From assembly GCF_900111485.1 (NCBI RefSeq), contig NZ_FOIC01000016.1:1-64000 (forward strand): a stretch of 64,000 nucleotides of DNA. Direction: 5' to 3'. Origin of the DNA: Natrinema hispanicum. Its GTDB lineage: Archaea; Halobacteriota; Halobacteria; Halobacteriales; Natrialbaceae. The notes below the pieces were generated by a model. The model was given only the letters and a program-made list of their open reading frames with translations, ran no database searches and had not been told where the DNA came from. Position 1 is the first letter of the stretch. Every line of letters begins with the position of its first letter. This document shows positions 34,628 to 41,267 of this stretch, in pieces. The position numbers and the translations under genes are program-made.

Positions 34628-34828
34628 TCAGGCTAGCTTGGCCTCGGTGTCACCGTTTGACGGCCACATCGCCCAGATGAGGACCGCAACGATGAGTGCC
34701 AGTCCCAGTGCGCCCGTCTCCACGACGGACAGCCTGATACCGAACCACGAGAGCACCGTTCGCAACTCGACGATCAGTGGCGTCAGGAACGCCATGATGA
34801 CGAGGAGTCCGCCCTTCGAGATACGCAT
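34628..34828 (-). CDS. cbaC: small subunit of ba3 oxidase operon, CbaC-like
   Basis: This 66-residue protein has two membrane helices (about 6-26 and 39-56). It starts one base after the end of the oxidase subunit I gene and is the last gene of the operon. Small two-helix proteins at this place are found with ba3 oxidases of Natronomonas pharaonis (cba genes). The name is given by position and topology, not by a motif. Confidence 0.6.
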   Translation of the reverse strand: MRISKGGLLVIMAFLTPLIVELRTVLSWFGIRLSVVETGALGLALIVAVLIWAMWPSNGDTEAKLA

Positions 34829-34829
34829 A

Positions 34830-36566
34830 TTAGGGCATCACCCCACGCACGGACTCGAGGACGAGACTCGGGTCGACGACGACGCTTGGCTTCCAGGGGT
34901 CGATGCCGGGGCCGAACAGCCCACCGGCGTCGATGATGCTCGCAAGCGGGAGCGAGTAGGCGATGATCACGAGGACGACGGCGATCGAAGTCCAGAGCTT
35001 GAGGTTGTCGATGATCGCTGGCGAGTCCTCGGGGCCCGAGAGCGTGCCGGCATAGGTGTTGTCCGGAATCGCATCGCTGGTGGAGCCACCGATGGTCGTC
35101 AGGACCATGTTCGTGATGAACAGGTACACCGAGAGGGTCAGCAACGCCGCGCCCAGAGCGACCTGTGCGTCGATCTCAGCGACGGTGCCGACGGCGGGAT
35201 CGAAGCTAAAGCCCTCGTACTGCGGTTCAGCAGTCCGACGGGGTATCCCGAACAGCCCGGCCCGGTGCATCGCGTTCGACATGAACGTCATGCCGATGAA
35301 CCACAGCACGACCTGGACCAGCCCGAGCGAGCGGTTCCAGATCTCTTTGCCGGTCAACTGTGGGATGAACCAGTAGGACGCCGCCATGAAGGTCAACGCG
35401 ACGGCGGTGCCGACTGTGAGGTGGAAGTGACCGACGACCCACCAGGAGTTGTGAACGAGGTAGTTGATGCTCAGGCCGGCGTTGATCATGCCGGAGAAGC
35501 CACCGGCAGCGAACATGAGGCCGGCAAGCGCCATCCCGGTAAATGCCGGGTCACGCCATGGAAGTGCCTTGAGCCAGCTGAGGTAGCCCTCACCGCCGCG
35601 CTGGCGCGCGCCGTGTTCCATGCTGGCGACGACGGTAAACGCGGTCAGCAGGCTTGGCAACAGCAGGAACATCGTGTTCGTCATCGCGATGAACTTGAAC
35701 CCTTCCGCGATGCCGGGATCCAGATACTGGTGGTGGATCCCAACCGGCGTCGACAGGATCAGGAACAGCACGAAGACGACACGTGCGAGCGGATCGCTGA
35801 ACAGCTTGCCACCGGAGAGCTTCGGCAGCATGGTGTACCACAGCATGTACGCCGGCATCAGCCAGAAGTACACGACTGGGTGGCCGAAGAACCAGAACAG
35901 CGTCCGGGTGAGCAGCGGGTTAACGGAGTCGATGATCCCCAGCGACCACGGGAGCAGGAACGCGAGGATCGAGATGGCGACACCGATCGAGCTGAGATAC
36001 CAGAACAGCATCGTCGTCAACGCCATGAACGTCGGCAGCGGGATCCGTTCGTCGGGATTGTCCTTCTTCCAGGCCCACCATGTCCGGAACCAGTCGAAGC
36101 CAGCGAGCCAGGTCCCGACGACGAACAGGACGAAGCCCACATAAAACGCCGGATGCGCCTGGAACGGCGAATAAAACGTATACAGGACGTCGGCGTTCAT
36201 CGGAATCTGGTCGACGACGCCGCCGAGGATCGAGACGCCGACCAGGAGCGTTCCGAGCGACATCATTGCGTACCAGCCCCACGTAAAGCGGATGTCTTTG
36301 ACACCGCGATCGAGGCTAGTCGTTACTGCCCAGGTGAAGATCCCCACGAGGAAGAAGATCGTGAACGTGATCACCAGCAACACGCCGTGGGCAGTCAACA
36401 CGGTGTAGTAGTCCTGCGAGGGGATGAACCGCAAGACGTTCGTTCGGTGCAGGCCCTGAATGAGCCCGAGCGTCCCGCCGATCATCAGCGCGAGGAAGGA
36501 ACTCCAGAGTGCGGCTCTGATTACGCGTGCCTCCTCTGGGAACTGGTCGATGTAGGCGTTACGCAT
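34830..36566 (-). CDS. cbaA: ba3-type terminal oxidase subunit I
   Basis: This 578-residue, 13-helix membrane protein is the catalytic subunit that reduces oxygen to water. Visible heme and CuB ligands are in TAHGVLL (low-spin heme), FFGHPVVYFW (CuB His with the Tyr of the cross-linked pair), STPVGIHHQYLDP (two CuB His) and VVGHFHLTVG (heme a3 and b His). It resembles the B-type (ba3) oxidases. The second ATG (36566) is used as start because a perfect SD, GGAGGTGAT at 36571-36579, is placed properly for it; the gene overlaps the end of subunit II by 8 bases. Confidence 0.95.
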   Translation of the reverse strand: MRNAYIDQFPEEARVIRAALWSSFLALMIGGTLGLIQGLHRTNVLRFIPSQDYYTVLTAHGVLLVITFTIFFLVGIFTWAVTTSLDRGVKDIRFTWGWYAMMSLGTLLVGVSILGGVVDQIPMNADVLYTFYSPFQAHPAFYVGFVLFVVGTWLAGFDWFRTWWAWKKDNPDERIPLPTFMALTTMLFWYLSSIGVAISILAFLLPWSLGIIDSVNPLLTRTLFWFFGHPVVYFWLMPAYMLWYTMLPKLSGGKLFSDPLARVVFVLFLILSTPVGIHHQYLDPGIAEGFKFIAMTNTMFLLLPSLLTAFTVVASMEHGARQRGGEGYLSWLKALPWRDPAFTGMALAGLMFAAGGFSGMINAGLSINYLVHNSWWVVGHFHLTVGTAVALTFMAASYWFIPQLTGKEIWNRSLGLVQVVLWFIGMTFMSNAMHRAGLFGIPRRTAEPQYEGFSFDPAVGTVAEIDAQVALGAALLTLSVYLFITNMVLTTIGGSTSDAIPDNTYAGTLSGPEDSPAIIDNLKLWTSIAVVLVIIAYSLPLASIIDAGGLFGPGIDPWKPSVVVDPSLVLESVRGVMP

Positions 36567-37386
36567 CGCCATCACCTCCTTCGGTCGCGTTGGTGACCGT
36601 GAGCGTCCCACTTCCCTCGTGGCCGTCGACGGTCACCGTCCAGTCGTGATCGCCTGTTCCAAAGTCAGTCGTGTCGACCGCGAACTCGAGGGTTTCGCTG
36701 CCGTGTGCGGGCACCGTGACGTCCTGCTCGACGGTCTGATCCTGCTCGACGGTCTGATCCTGCTCGACGGTCTGATTGCCGATCTCGAGGGTTGCGGTCG
36801 TTTCGAGGTCGTAATTCATATCGTTGCTGACGGTGGTGTTGATCGTCGTCTGGTTGCCGAGCTGGGCCTCGTCGGGGGCCTCAGTCGACAGTTCGGTCAG
36901 ATCGAACTCGTCTTCAGGAACGACGTTCAGTTTGCCTTCCATCGTGTGGTGGTATGCACCACAGTACTCGTTGCAGAGAATGCCGTACTCGCCGGGTTCG
37001 TCGAACTCGACGGTCATCTCTGAGACTTGTCCAGGGACGACCATCGTGTTCACGTTCGTCCCGGCGACAGTATAGCTGTGTGTCACGTCCCGGCTCGTCA
37101 CGTAAAACGTCACGGTGCTGTTCGCCGGCACCGTGATCTCGCTTGGCGTGTACGCCCACGCCTGAGCGACGACGGCCGCCTCGTATTCGTTGCCACCGAC
37201 GTGTGTGACGCCAGGGTCACTGAACCGCTCGTCGTCGTTGATCGTGTCCGGATCGATGGTGCCGCCATCGTCGTCGATCATGGCGATGCCGGGCCCGACC
37301 GCGCCGTACGTAATCGTCGCGATAAAGCCGACGATCAGCACCATCGCGACGGCCAGCCAGGTCTTTTCGTAGGTGTGAATGTTCAT
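36559..37386 (-). CDS. cbaB: ba3-type terminal oxidase subunit II with CARDB-like extension
   Basis: The 275-residue protein has one membrane helix (about 8-32), a cupredoxin domain (about 65-155) and the CuA site: His in DVTHSY and GILCNEYCGAYHHTM with two Cys, His and Met. It accepts electrons from a copper protein such as halocyanin. After the cupredoxin domain comes an unusual extension (about 180-265) with NMNYDLETTATLEIGNQ, resembling a CARDB-like beta sandwich, that contains a three-fold repeat VEQDQT. This is longer than ordinary subunits II. Its ATG overlaps the preceding stop by 4 bases. Confidence 0.93.
   Translation of the reverse strand: MNIHTYEKTWLAVAMVLIVGFIATITYGAVGPGIAMIDDDGGTIDPDTINDDERFSDPGVTHVGGNEYEAAVVAQAWAYTPSEITVPANSTVTFYVTSRDVTHSYTVAGTNVNTMVVPGQVSEMTVEFDEPGEYGILCNEYCGAYHHTMEGKLNVVPEDEFDLTELSTEAPDEAQLGNQTTINTTVSNDMNYDLETTATLEIGNQTVEQDQTVEQDQTVEQDVTVPAHGSETLEFAVDTTDFGTGDHDWTVTVDGHEGSGTLTVTNATEGGDGDA
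36571..36579 (-). promoter_or_regulatory. perfect Shine-Dalgarno site for cbaA
   Basis: GGAGGTGAT on the minus strand is fully complementary to the conserved 16S 3-prime end. It lies inside the last codons of cbaB, 4 bases before the second cbaA ATG. It decides the start at 36566 rather than 36572, which it overlaps. Confidence 0.75.
36723..36776. repeat. 18-base tandem repeat, three copies, in cbaB
   Basis: CCTGCTCGACGGTCTGAT occurs three times head to tail (36723-36740, 36741-36758, 36759-36776) with no mismatch. Translated on the minus strand it gives three repeats of the residues V-E-Q-D-Q-T in the extension of subunit II. Perfect copies suggest recent slippage and possible length variation. 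Confidence 0.85.
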
Positions 37387-37610
37387 GCAAGCCCCACCAC
37401 CGTCAACAGCACCCCGGTGACGGTCGGCCCGTTACCGAGGAACTCGATGAAGTACATGAATATCCACAGTGCCACCAGTATGAGAAAGTAGATCCCAACC
37501 AGAATCGCTGTTCCGATCGGATCGTACTCGTCGTGATCGAGTTCACGAACCTGATCGGTCTCATCAGTGGGATGCTTCCCATCCACCCCTTTTTCGATAG
37601 CCGAACTCAT
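37383..37610 (-). CDS. cbaD: small subunit of ba3 oxidase operon, CbaD-like
   Basis: The 75-residue protein has a charged N-terminal half rich in His and Asp (about 1-35), then a strong membrane helix (about 37-60, TAILVGIYFLILVALWIFMYF) and a hydrophobic end. It is the first gene of the oxidase operon and overlaps the start of subunit II by 4 bases. One-helix small subunits of this kind are known from the ba3 oxidase of Thermus and as CbaD in haloarchaea. Assigned by place and topology. Confidence 0.65.
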   Translation of the reverse strand: MSSAIEKGVDGKHPTDETDQVRELDHDEYDPIGTAILVGIYFLILVALWIFMYFIEFLGNGPTVTGVLLTVVGLA

Positions 37611-37711
37611 ACGGAGTGGTAGGGAAAGGGCATGACTTACTGCCAATCATCATTCCCGGCCACTGGGAACGGGTTGGGGAATTAAGCTATCCACCGTCTA
37701 AACCAATGTGT
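37611..37711. promoter_or_regulatory. shared promoter region of the oxidase and copper genes
   Basis: About 100 bases separate the divergent operons. It contains TTCCC-N7-GGGAA (37647-37663), a weak inverted repeat, and GGAATTAAGC (37678-37687), a TATA-like element for the plus-strand genes. Co-regulation of oxidase and copper handling is inferred from this layout. Confidence 0.4.
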
Positions 37712-37924
37712 ATGAGCCTCGAGACACTCCAACCTCGACACGCGGCAGCTGTCGGGTTGCTTGCGTTGATCCCGCTTATCGTCTATGGAATCACGGATTC
37801 GGTATTCGCCGGTGGCGTCAGCATGCTCAACACTGGCCTCATCTACGGCTCGCTGTATCTCGCCATGTCACCGGTCGAGACGTCCCACGGCCACCATGGT
37901 GACGGCAGCGGCACCCTCGGCTAA
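37712..37924 (+). CDS. small two-helix membrane protein, CbaE-like
   Basis: This 70-residue protein has two membrane helices (about 10-30 and 34-53) and a His-rich tail with SHGHHGDGSG that could bind copper. It is divergent from the oxidase operon and 14 bases before the TauE/SafE gene. An alternative start 2 codons earlier at 37706 is possible. In related haloarchaea a short protein at this place is annotated as an oxidase subunit; I cannot confirm that here. Confidence 0.6.
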   Translation: MSLETLQPRHAAAVGLLALIPLIVYGITDSVFAGGVSMLNTGLIYGSLYLAMSPVETSHGHHGDGSGTLG

Positions 37925-37938
37925 CGCTTTCAGTTCAG

Positions 37939-38817
37939 ATGACCCTCGTTTCATCCGTATCGAGCCCGCTCTCGACCGCTCTTCCGCTTGAGTCCGGCGT
38001 CCACTCACTGATCGTACCGCTGATGGGTGCGTCGGTACCGTCGGGTGCCGTCCTCGAGCGCGTGAACCTGCTTTTGCTGTTCGTCGTCGGACTGCTGGCT
38101 GGCGCACACTGTTTGGGGATGTGTGGCCCACTGGTGACGGCGTATGCCGACCGGATCGGTGCGGCGAGCAGTAAACGCCGCGACGACACGCTCACCGGCT
38201 ACGAGGTGCGCCAGCATGCGCTGTTTAACCTCGGTCGGACGGCCAGCTACGCTGTGGTCGGCGGCCTGTTCGGTCTGCTCGGGGCGATCACGATCGCCTC
38301 GAGCGAGGCCGTCGCCGCCATCGGCGACAGCGTCAGGGGCGTGACGGGAATCCTCGTCGGGATCGCGATCGTCACGAGCGGCCTGTACTATCTCCGGGGG
38401 CAAACTGCCGTTCCCGGTCACGGACTGCCGATCATCGGAACGGCCTTCCGCCGACTCTCCGATCTCCTCTCGAGCCGGATCGACCGCTACGCGACGTCGC
38501 CGGGGATTTTCGCACTCGGTGCGGTTCATGGCCTCATGCCGTGTCCGATCATCTATCCGGCGTACCTCTATGCGTTCGCGCTCGGCTCACCGACGCGCGG
38601 AGCGCTCTCACTCGCCGCTCTCGGGCTGGGGACGATTCCCACACTGTTCGCCTACGGGACCGTCCTGAACACGATCGGGCCCGACACGCGCGTTCGACTC
38701 CATCGTGGACTGGGGGCTGCGTTCGTCGTGCTCGGCTACATTCCCCTCTCACACGGGCTGATGCTGTACGGCATCCATCTGCCACACGTCCCGCTCCCGT
38801 ACATTAACCTGTTCTAA
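37939..38817 (+). CDS. TauE/SafE-type membrane protein of the oxidase cluster
   Basis: The 292-residue protein has about six membrane helices and two Cys-bearing motifs: GAHCLGMCGP (His57, Cys58, Met61, Cys62) and HGLMPCP (His197, Cys202). Proteins of this UreH/SafE-like group often stand next to cbb3 oxidase maturation genes and copper ATPases and are thought to move copper or reducing power across the membrane. The Cys-Met-His pattern fits copper. It ends 2 bases before the ATPase start, so the two are surely co-translated. The exact cargo is not established. Confidence 0.8.
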   Translation: MTLVSSVSSPLSTALPLESGVHSLIVPLMGASVPSGAVLERVNLLLLFVVGLLAGAHCLGMCGPLVTAYADRIGAASSKRRDDTLTGYEVRQHALFNLGRTASYAVVGGLFGLLGAITIASSEAVAAIGDSVRGVTGILVGIAIVTSGLYYLRGQTAVPGHGLPIIGTAFRRLSDLLSSRIDRYATSPGIFALGAVHGLMPCPIIYPAYLYAFALGSPTRGALSLAALGLGTIPTLFAYGTVLNTIGPDTRVRLHRGLGAAFVVLGYIPLSHGLMLYGIHLPHVPLPYINLF

Positions 38818-38819
38818 CG

Positions 38820-41267
38820 ATGGGTGAGAATCCACAGCAGTCCGCGCAGTCGCCCGCGGCGGCAGCCAATGCAGGAACTGCGAACCCAACCGGCAACGGG
38901 TCACCGGCCGAGCCCGAGGCCGACACCGATACCTGCGACCTCTGTGAGCTGCCGACTCCGCCGACTCCGATCACCGAGCCCGACGTCGACGGCTCGTTTT
39001 GTTGTCAGGGCTGTCTCGAGGTCGCTCGGACGCTCGAGCGAACCGACGGCCCCGACGAGGCGGAGCTACAGTCACGACTGGACGACGACGGTCCCGACCT
39101 CGATGAGCTCGAGGGTGAGGACGCCTTCCTCGCGGTCGATGGGATGCACTGTTCGACGTGTGAAGCGTTCCTCGAGACGACCGCCGAACGCGAAGCGGGC
39201 GTCCGTGGCGTAACGGCCAGTTACGCGACGGACACGATCCGAATCGTCTACGATCCCGACGAACTCGCGGCTGACGAGCTTCCTGACATCGTTTCCGGCT
39301 ACGGCTATACTGCGTCAGACCGCTCGAGTGCCGACGATGAAGACGCCGATGATCGGCTCGGTGCGCTCCTGTTCGGGGCCTTTTTCGGCATGATGGTCAT
39401 GACGTGGTACATCCTGTTTCTGTACCCGACTTACTTCGGTTTCGAGCCGATCGCCGACTTCGGCGGCTATGACGGCATGTTTCTGACGGCGAACATCTGG
39501 GTGTTTACCTCGTTCGTTCTCTTTTATACCGGCTATCCGACCCTCCGCGGGGCGTACGTCAGCCTCCGGGCGGGTCGACCGAACATGGACCTGCTCGTTG
39601 CGCTCGCCGCACTCGGGTCGTATAGCTACAGCGCGATCGCGACTCTGCTAGGGCGGACCCACGTCTACTTCGACGTGACCGTTGCGATCATTATCGTCGT
39701 CACCGCGGGCACCCACTACGAGCAGGCGGTCAAACGCCGTGCGACCGGCCTCCTCTCTGAACTGACCGAACAGCAGGTCGACGAGGCCCGCCGTGAGAGC
39801 GGCGAGACGGTCCCCCTCGAGGACGTCGATCCCGGCGATCGCCTGCTCGTCCGTCCCGGCGAGCGGATCCCGCTCGACGGCAACGTCGCTGAAGGCTCGG
39901 CTGCCGTCGACGAGTCGCTCGTCACCGGTGAATCGCTGCCCGTCGGCAAGACGCTGGGTGATCCGGTTCGGGGTGGCACCGTCGTTACCGACGCCCCGCT
40001 CGTTGTCACCGTCGGCGACGAGGCCGAAAGCACGCTCGACCGGCTCGTTTCGCTGCTCTGGTCGATCCAGAGCGCCCGTCCAGGCGTCCAGCGACTCGCC
40101 GACAAGCTCGCGACGGTGTTCGTCCCGCTTGTCGTCATCCTCGCGGTCGGGACAACCGCCGTCTTGCTCGCGACCGGCTCGAGCGTCTCGCGGGCGCTGT
40201 TGATCGGGCTGACAGTCGTGATCGTCTCCTGTCCGTGTGCGCTTGGGCTCGCGACGCCGCTTGCGATCGCCGCGGGGATTCAGTCCGCCGCCGAGCGGGG
40301 GATCGTCGTCGCCGCGGAGACGATCTTCGAGGACGCCAGAGACGTCGATGTCGTCGTCCTCGACAAGACGGGGACGCTCACGACTGGGACGATGACCGTC
40401 GAAGACGTACACGCCGTCGATGACGTCGATGCCGACGAACTGCTCCGGCGGGCTGGCACCGTCGAGGCACTCTCCGAGCATCCGATCGCAGCCGCCATCG
40501 CGGACGCAGCATCCGAGTCTGCGACCGAGGACGCAACGACCGCCGTCGACGAGTTCGAGCGGGCCGACCGCGGTGTCAGCGGCTGCGTCGACGGCGACCG
40601 CGTCGTCGTCGGCCACCCCGACTTCCTCCGCGAGCACGGGCTCGCCGTTCCCGAGGCGCTCGCGTCTCGAATCACCGAAACCCGTGACGCGGGTGATGTA
40701 CCGGTCGTCGTCGGCTGGGACGGGCAGGCTCACGGCGTGATCGTCGTCGGTGACTCACCGCGTGACGAACTCGATGACGCGCTCGAGACCCTCTCGTCGG
40801 GCCGCGACGTCGTCGTTCTGACTGGCGACGAGGGCGCGGCGGCCGATCGGTTCCGCGCGCTCGAGGGTGTCGACGAGGTCTTTGCCGGTGTTCCGCCGGA
40901 GGCAAAAGCCGAGACCGTCGACCGGTTGCGGAGTCGAGGGACGGTCGCGATGGTCGGCGACGGGAGCAACGACGCGCCCGCGTTGGCAACTGCGGACGTC
41001 GGAATCGCGATGGGCAGTGGGACAAAACTCGCGACTGACGCAGCCGACGCGGTGATCGTCGGCGACGACCTCGGTGCCGTCTCCGAGACGTTCGATATCG
41101 CGACGAGCACCCATCGGCGAATCCGGCAGAACCTCGGCTGGGCCTTTGCCTACAACGCGGTCGCGATCCCGCTGGCGGTGCTCGGCCTGTTGAACCCATT
41201 GTTCGCCGCCGTCGCGATGGCTGCCAGTAGCGCGCTGGTCGTCCTCAACTCCTCGCGGTCGATGTAG
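38820..41267 (+). CDS. copper P-type ATPase, CcoI-like
   Basis: This 815-residue pump exports copper for oxidase assembly. It has an N-terminal cysteine module (Cys39, Cys42, then FCCQGC with Cys61, 62, 65) typical of CcoI/FixI-like ATPases, one HMA domain with GMHCSTC (Cys111, Cys114), membrane helices, the CPC transport motif (471-473), the phosphorylation site DKTGT (Asp515), SEHPIAAA, and GDGSNDAPAL. The first 35 residues are a disordered Pro/Ala-rich stretch. The neighbours and N-terminal module make delivery of copper to the oxidase likelier than general detoxification (CopA). Confidence 0.9.
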   Translation: MGENPQQSAQSPAAAANAGTANPTGNGSPAEPEADTDTCDLCELPTPPTPITEPDVDGSFCCQGCLEVARTLERTDGPDEAELQSRLDDDGPDLDELEGEDAFLAVDGMHCSTCEAFLETTAEREAGVRGVTASYATDTIRIVYDPDELAADELPDIVSGYGYTASDRSSADDEDADDRLGALLFGAFFGMMVMTWYILFLYPTYFGFEPIADFGGYDGMFLTANIWVFTSFVLFYTGYPTLRGAYVSLRAGRPNMDLLVALAALGSYSYSAIATLLGRTHVYFDVTVAIIIVVTAGTHYEQAVKRRATGLLSELTEQQVDEARRESGETVPLEDVDPGDRLLVRPGERIPLDGNVAEGSAAVDESLVTGESLPVGKTLGDPVRGGTVVTDAPLVVTVGDEAESTLDRLVSLLWSIQSARPGVQRLADKLATVFVPLVVILAVGTTAVLLATGSSVSRALLIGLTVVIVSCPCALGLATPLAIAAGIQSAAERGIVVAAETIFEDARDVDVVVLDKTGTLTTGTMTVEDVHAVDDVDADELLRRAGTVEALSEHPIAAAIADAASESATEDATTAVDEFERADRGVSGCVDGDRVVVGHPDFLREHGLAVPEALASRITETRDAGDVPVVVGWDGQAHGVIVVGDSPRDELDDALETLSSGRDVVVLTGDEGAAADRFRALEGVDEVFAGVPPEAKAETVDRLRSRGTVAMVGDGSNDAPALATADVGIAMGSGTKLATDAADAVIVGDDLGAVSETFDIATSTHRRIRQNLGWAFAYNAVAIPLAVLGLLNPLFAAVAMAASSALVVLNSSRSM

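Follow-up and report, generated by a model that had tools for sequence, protein, structure and literature searches.

The locus described here raises the question of how copper reaches the haem-copper oxidases of haloarchaea. The window, i.e. the whole stretch of 64,000 nucleotides that was analysed (G000:C45), belongs to the 4.0 Mb genome of Natrinema hispanicum (92 contigs) and contains an operon for a ba3 oxidase that faces an operon encoding a small membrane protein, a SafE-like protein and a Cu(I)-type ATPase. The initial annotation proposed that these facing genes deliver copper to the oxidase and derive from a maturation module that serves cbb3 oxidases in bacteria. Globally, the linkage between the two operons is real and stronger than first supposed, and it suggests a dedicated copper-loading route in haloarchaea, while reuse of a cbb3 module as its origin is not established. 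A literature search found no earlier description of a ba3 oxidase associated with a P-type ATPase in haloarchaea, and no described pathway of archaeal copper loading into haem-copper oxidases was found in the literature searched. The accessible part of a copper inventory of H. mediterranei assigns exporter or chaperone roles to the annotated P-type ATPases and mentions no link with ba3.

Two facing operons

ORF and family searches recovered, on both strands of 34628-41267, the seven genes initially annotated there, each at its coordinates, and also the promoter region that the two operons were thought to share. The features are the following:

34628-34828, minus strand: small oxidase subunit of one or two helices in the CbaC position (66 aa; ORF, cbaDBAC order)
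34830-36611, minus strand: CbaA, ba3 oxidase subunit I (PF00115, E=1.9e-85; GHPVVY, HH and HFH motifs)
36559-37386, minus strand: CbaB, ba3 oxidase subunit II (PF00116, PF13473; CuA motif CNEYCGAYHHTM)
37383-37610, minus strand: CbaD small subunit (75 aa; ORF)
37611-37705, no strand: divergent promoter region common to both operons (gap of about 95-100 bases; sequence)
37706-37924, plus strand: small two-helix membrane protein (ATG at 37706 or, alternatively, 37712)
37939-38817, plus strand: SafE-like DsbD_2 protein (PF13386, E=1.6e-48)
38820-41267, plus strand: Cu(I)-type P1B ATPase (TIGR01511 Cu ATPase, 437 bits; motifs)

The minus operon has the features of a B-type cba oxidase, namely a COX1 protein with GHPxVY, a subunit II with CuA, and the small CbaC and CbaD proteins. 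The true start of subunit I is likely an internal ATG near 36566-36572, and the C-terminal extension of subunit II carries a tandem VEQDQT repeat (36709-36780). In the plus operon, 14 bases separate the small protein gene from the SafE-like gene and only 2 bases separate the latter from the ATPase gene.

Other haloarchaea display variations of the oxidase operon. In some of them, CbaD is fused to halocyanin domains (two such domains in L100:6545-7804), and the accessible part of an earlier account includes a halocyanin-cbaD fusion from Halobacterium (PMC2674319). The ba3 loci with such a fusion also encode, after subunit I, a protein of about 190 aa made of a helix and an Ig-like part (L079:6044-6616 and homologues). 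A DUF7546 membrane protein with a CVSCTAP motif is recurrent near ba3 operons (L097:8713-9393 and homologues). Annotated cba genes are also known from Haloferax volcanii (HVO_0943/HVO_0945).

Association with ba3 across haloarchaea

For the three main proteins of the locus, the survey covered 145 genomes of the class. Subunit I of ba3 was found in 100 of them (114 copies), and position lists place the ATPase at 8 kb or less from ba3 in at least 95 of these 100 genomes. The tabular survey had indicated no ATPase near ba3 in four genomes (G043, G061, G098 and G076); this was an artefact of E-value and other cut-offs, as reading of the locus DNA revealed the ATPase beside ba3 in all four. Lists and DNA reading together place the ATPase at the ba3 locus in 99 of the 100 ba3 genomes, in 95 of these 99 with the divergent arrangement of the window, which excludes chance adjacency. 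The same gene order recurs in ten family codes. The sole ba3 genome devoid of a linked ATPase (G124) carries it elsewhere (L078), yet this ATPase belongs to the ba3-linked clade, where it groups with the linked one from the genome carrying L100, whose ba3 subunit I is likewise the nearest relative of that of G124.

Co-occurrence gives the same picture. Indeed, the ATPase family is present in 100/100 genomes with ba3 versus 13/45 without it, and the SafE family in 100/100 versus 12/45; the corresponding Fisher values (about 1e-22) exaggerate the strength of this association because the surveyed genomes are related. The proposal that both genes go with ba3 is therefore borne out, and the contrary case, an ATPase usually found apart from any oxidase, is contradicted by the linkage in 99 of 100 ba3 genomes. 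COX1 proteins of any kind are encoded by 141 of the 145 genomes, and most genomes without the ATPase family keep another COX1 type; therefore, the pump tracks ba3 and not oxidases generally. The association of the SafE-like gene is looser at the level of the locus: although present in every ba3 genome, it lies at the locus for roughly half of the ba3 copies only, among the matches listed (10 kb or less from at least 60 of the 114).

At least 14 second copies of ba3, including one in the host genome (C84), have no linked ATPase. Those from Natrialbaceae (family code f1) group in a single clade, and the genomes that harbour unlinked copies carry another, linked one. Therefore, the ba3 oxidase does not require the ATPase in cis. 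The second operon of the host (G000:C84:5074-8290, L104) has no ATPase in the 15 kb analysed and has a small two-helix gene downstream of cbaC.

The small two-helix protein of the window, first described as a His-rich membrane protein, is indeed a membrane protein, but its histidine tail is not conserved among homologues, and a role as conserved His-rich copper binder was rejected on this ground. Homologues are found at most ba3 loci. The conservation of the two-helix form, together with the position of the gene 3' of cbaC in several second ba3 operons, suggests that it may be an oxidase subunit or an assembly protein.

The SafE-like protein matches PF13386 (DsbD_2, TauE/SafE-like) with 165.7 bits for a cut-off of 24.9. 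An alignment of 34 sequences reveals the invariant motifs HCxGMCGP and PCPxxYP and the invariant residues H57, C58, M61, C62, H93, H197 and C202 (numbering of the window protein). Searches of the PDB by sequence and by fold (model pLDDT 79) gave no significant match and hence no support for a CcdA-like fold. Of the copies located away from both ba3 and the ATPase, at least 23 of 62 are beside SCO, and others are beside NosD/NosL (L089, L093, L094) or an unusual CuA enzyme (L077); each of these settings concerns copper delivery or CuA.

The latter locus, in G104, encodes a COX1 protein (L077:13883-15688) that has a CuA-type partner and carries GHGTQQIN in place of GHPxVY; SafE, CcdA-like, TlpA-like and SCO genes adjoin it. 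This protein presumably resembles the eNOR-type nitric oxide reductases. In G002, a genome without ba3, a SafE-ATPase pair lies by an A-type COX1 gene, all on one strand (L080:6576-12206). The host genome itself harbours two copies of a SCO-TlpA-CcdA operon (L260:3696-5674 and L261:5538-7531), one of them near cydAB-like genes; a similar operon of H. mediterranei is induced in denitrification (PMC11218638).

The ATPase lineage and a candidate copper route

The ATPase of the window displays the motif set defined for Cu(I) P1B-1 pumps (PMC8475189), i.e. CPC in TM4 (SCPCALGL), YN and MxxSS in the last helices (AYNAVAIP, MAASS), DKTGT, and an HMA domain (MHCSTC). Its N-terminus also carries CDLC...FCCQGC. 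Nearly all ba3-linked ATPases share this CxxC...CCxGC site, an extra CcoI-like cysteine site that precedes the CopZ-like one; a PF12156-like N-terminus gives a weak match in 12 of 20 members, the window ATPase being below the Pfam cut-off. This site is not diagnostic of CcoI, because the alphaproteobacterial FixI proteins compared differ there and ba3-unlinked paralogues possess the motif.

In a tree of 73 rows, for which the pSymA FixI was located by tblastn, the haloarchaeal ATPases cluster together in a single clade (100*), distinct from both FixI/CcoI and the CopA/PacS-side pumps. A tree of 34 rows gives the same separation from FixI/CcoI; forcing the haloarchaeal ATPases and CcoI together, the latter represented by only three alphaproteobacterial sequences, costs 1.7 log units, so that the test gives a sister relation no support but does not reject it either (AU p=0.39). 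Within the family, the ba3-linked ATPases of the 73-row tree form two clades separate from the unlinked copies (2 label changes versus 24 in shuffles), and the ba3-linked clade is nearly exclusive to ba3 loci. A related clade paired with SafE also occurs without any oxidase nearby, so the pair serves something else as well. The distances between CoxA proteins and between ATPases are correlated (r=0.82, 0/5000 permutations), in part because both follow species descent. In both the ATPase and the ba3 trees, L108 (family f3) falls among f1-side sequences, which is consistent with transfer of the locus between families as a block.

The divergent plus operon is probably dedicated to supplying the ba3 oxidase with copper (probability of roughly 0.7). 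The ATPase would take cytosolic Cu(I) through its CxxC/CCxGC and HMA sites and export it across the membrane through CPC, YN and MxxSS, at low capacity and for protein maturation, as in a CopA2-like role, thereby placing copper next to the site of ba3 assembly. The SafE-like protein might then move electrons or Cu(I) through the membrane by means of its invariant His, Cys and Met residues, and in this way reduce and load either the cysteines of CuA or a SCO partner; CuB of subunit I would be the other likely target. The SafE step is the weakest part of this model, since the fold search gave no match.

Three other explanations of the linkage have to be weighed. The ATPase could be a copper-detoxification exporter with a CopA1 role, located beside ba3 only because both respond to a common copper/oxygen signal. 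Its transport motifs are indeed those of CopA, and TIGR01511 and CopA models score well. However, a general detoxification pump should not track ba3 so exactly nor split phylogenetically by oxidase linkage, and the same genome encodes another CopA, from the CopA1-side clade, beside an Lrp/AsnC-like gene. This one is the likelier detoxification pump, because the described detoxification pump of Halobacterium, yvgX, is under an Lrp-family regulator (PMC3551603). A detoxification role for the ba3-linked ATPase is thus unlikely. A more general role, in which the pump and SafE would serve secreted cuproproteins of several kinds (halocyanins, NosZ, aa3) and ba3 would be just the commonest neighbour, is judged about as improbable, if not slightly more so. 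The paralogous SafE/ATPase pairs found away from ba3, the SafE genes near Nos genes and SCO, and the pair of G002 that adjoins an A-type oxidase all speak for such a broader role; however, of the 32 genomes lacking the ATPase, most keep other COX1 types, which therefore do not require it, and the near-exclusivity of the ba3-linked clade points the same way.

The linkage could also be an inherited neighbourhood or the result of joint horizontal transfer, without functional dependence. The gene order is old in the class, the L108 locus apparently moved between families as a block and plasmid-borne copies exist. However, the linkage endures while CoxA identity drops to about 60% and flanking genes change, and the ATPase is gained and lost jointly with ba3, so that this explanation appears very improbable. 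The best reading is that the ATPase would be a CopA2-like pump of haloarchaea, dedicated to the supply of copper to ba3. A more tentative extension, with odds somewhat below even, is that haloarchaea evolved this route separately from CcoI: a ba3-dedicated ATPase lineage would export cytosolic Cu(I) and a SafE-like thiol/copper carrier would assist insertion, with no PCuAC involved and, in some species, no SCO either.

Comparison with known copper-loading systems

Bacterial pumps of the CopA2 type export the Cu(I) used in oxidase maturation (PMC8475189, PMC12617631). CcoI/FixI, the CopA2-type pumps of cbb3 clusters, resemble the ATPase of the window in that a P1B Cu(I) ATPase gene lies beside a haem-copper oxidase (PMC8475189, PMC12617631), and share with it two N-terminal cysteine sites and the CPC, YN and MxxSS motifs. 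However, the haloarchaeal ATPase belongs to a separate deep clade and its partner is a B-type oxidase with CuA. Furthermore, the module that accompanies ccoNOQP, ccoGHIS, has no complete counterpart here: CcoS/FixS and the cbb3 subunit FixO were each detected in 0/145 haloarchaeal genomes, the Caulobacter control being positive. The idea of a reused CcoI-type module therefore stands for the Cu(I) motifs and the CcoI-like cysteine N-terminus but not for the phylogenetic position of the ATPase, outside the FixI/CcoI clade, nor for the partners expected of such a module. The literature search found no paper that ties SafE-like proteins to cbb3.

A scan with a bacterial ba3 profile retrieved 80 loci, which belong to Deinococcota, Chloroflexota, Proteobacteria, Actinomycetota and other groups. 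In their flanks (up to 8 kb per side), a haloarchaeal query, which very distant homologues could escape, detected no SafE; a P-type ATPase was found in two loci, about 7-8 kb away, and SCO in ten. Among the groups tested, haloarchaea were thus the only ones to show the ba3/ATPase/SafE pairing.

Among archaeal systems, the minus operon displays the same cbaDBAC order and small subunits as cytochrome ba3 of Natronomonas pharaonis, as far as the accessible part of its description goes (PMC8305020). In their accessible parts, this account and that of the Halobacterium halocyanin-cbaD fusion deal with the oxidase only, without a facing copper operon (PMC8305020, PMC2674319). The yvgX/CopA exporter of Halobacterium is also a haloarchaeal P1B Cu ATPase (PMC3551603), but the presumed yvgX-type pump of the host, recognized by its Lrp/AsnC-like neighbour, belongs to a different clade and has no oxidase linkage.

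A candidate pump and its partner can now be named, with a near-perfect genomic association with one oxidase class. Moreover, PCuAC, which donates copper to this type of oxidase in bacteria, is missing in haloarchaea (0/145 genomes), and a probable maturation ATPase is set apart from a presumed detoxification ATPase in one genome. The question of copper loading thereby becomes testable genetically. As haloarchaea have no cbb3, CcoS or PCuAC, their copper delivery cannot follow the schemes known from bacteria. SCO was undetected in 7 of the 100 ba3-bearing genomes. A bacterial case for comparison is the ba3 oxidase of Thermus, of the same type and with both CuA and CuB, whose CuA is assembled by PCuAC, the CuA donor, and Sco1 (PMC7558416, PMC6696091), whereas haloarchaea instead possess a linked ATPase and a SafE-like protein.
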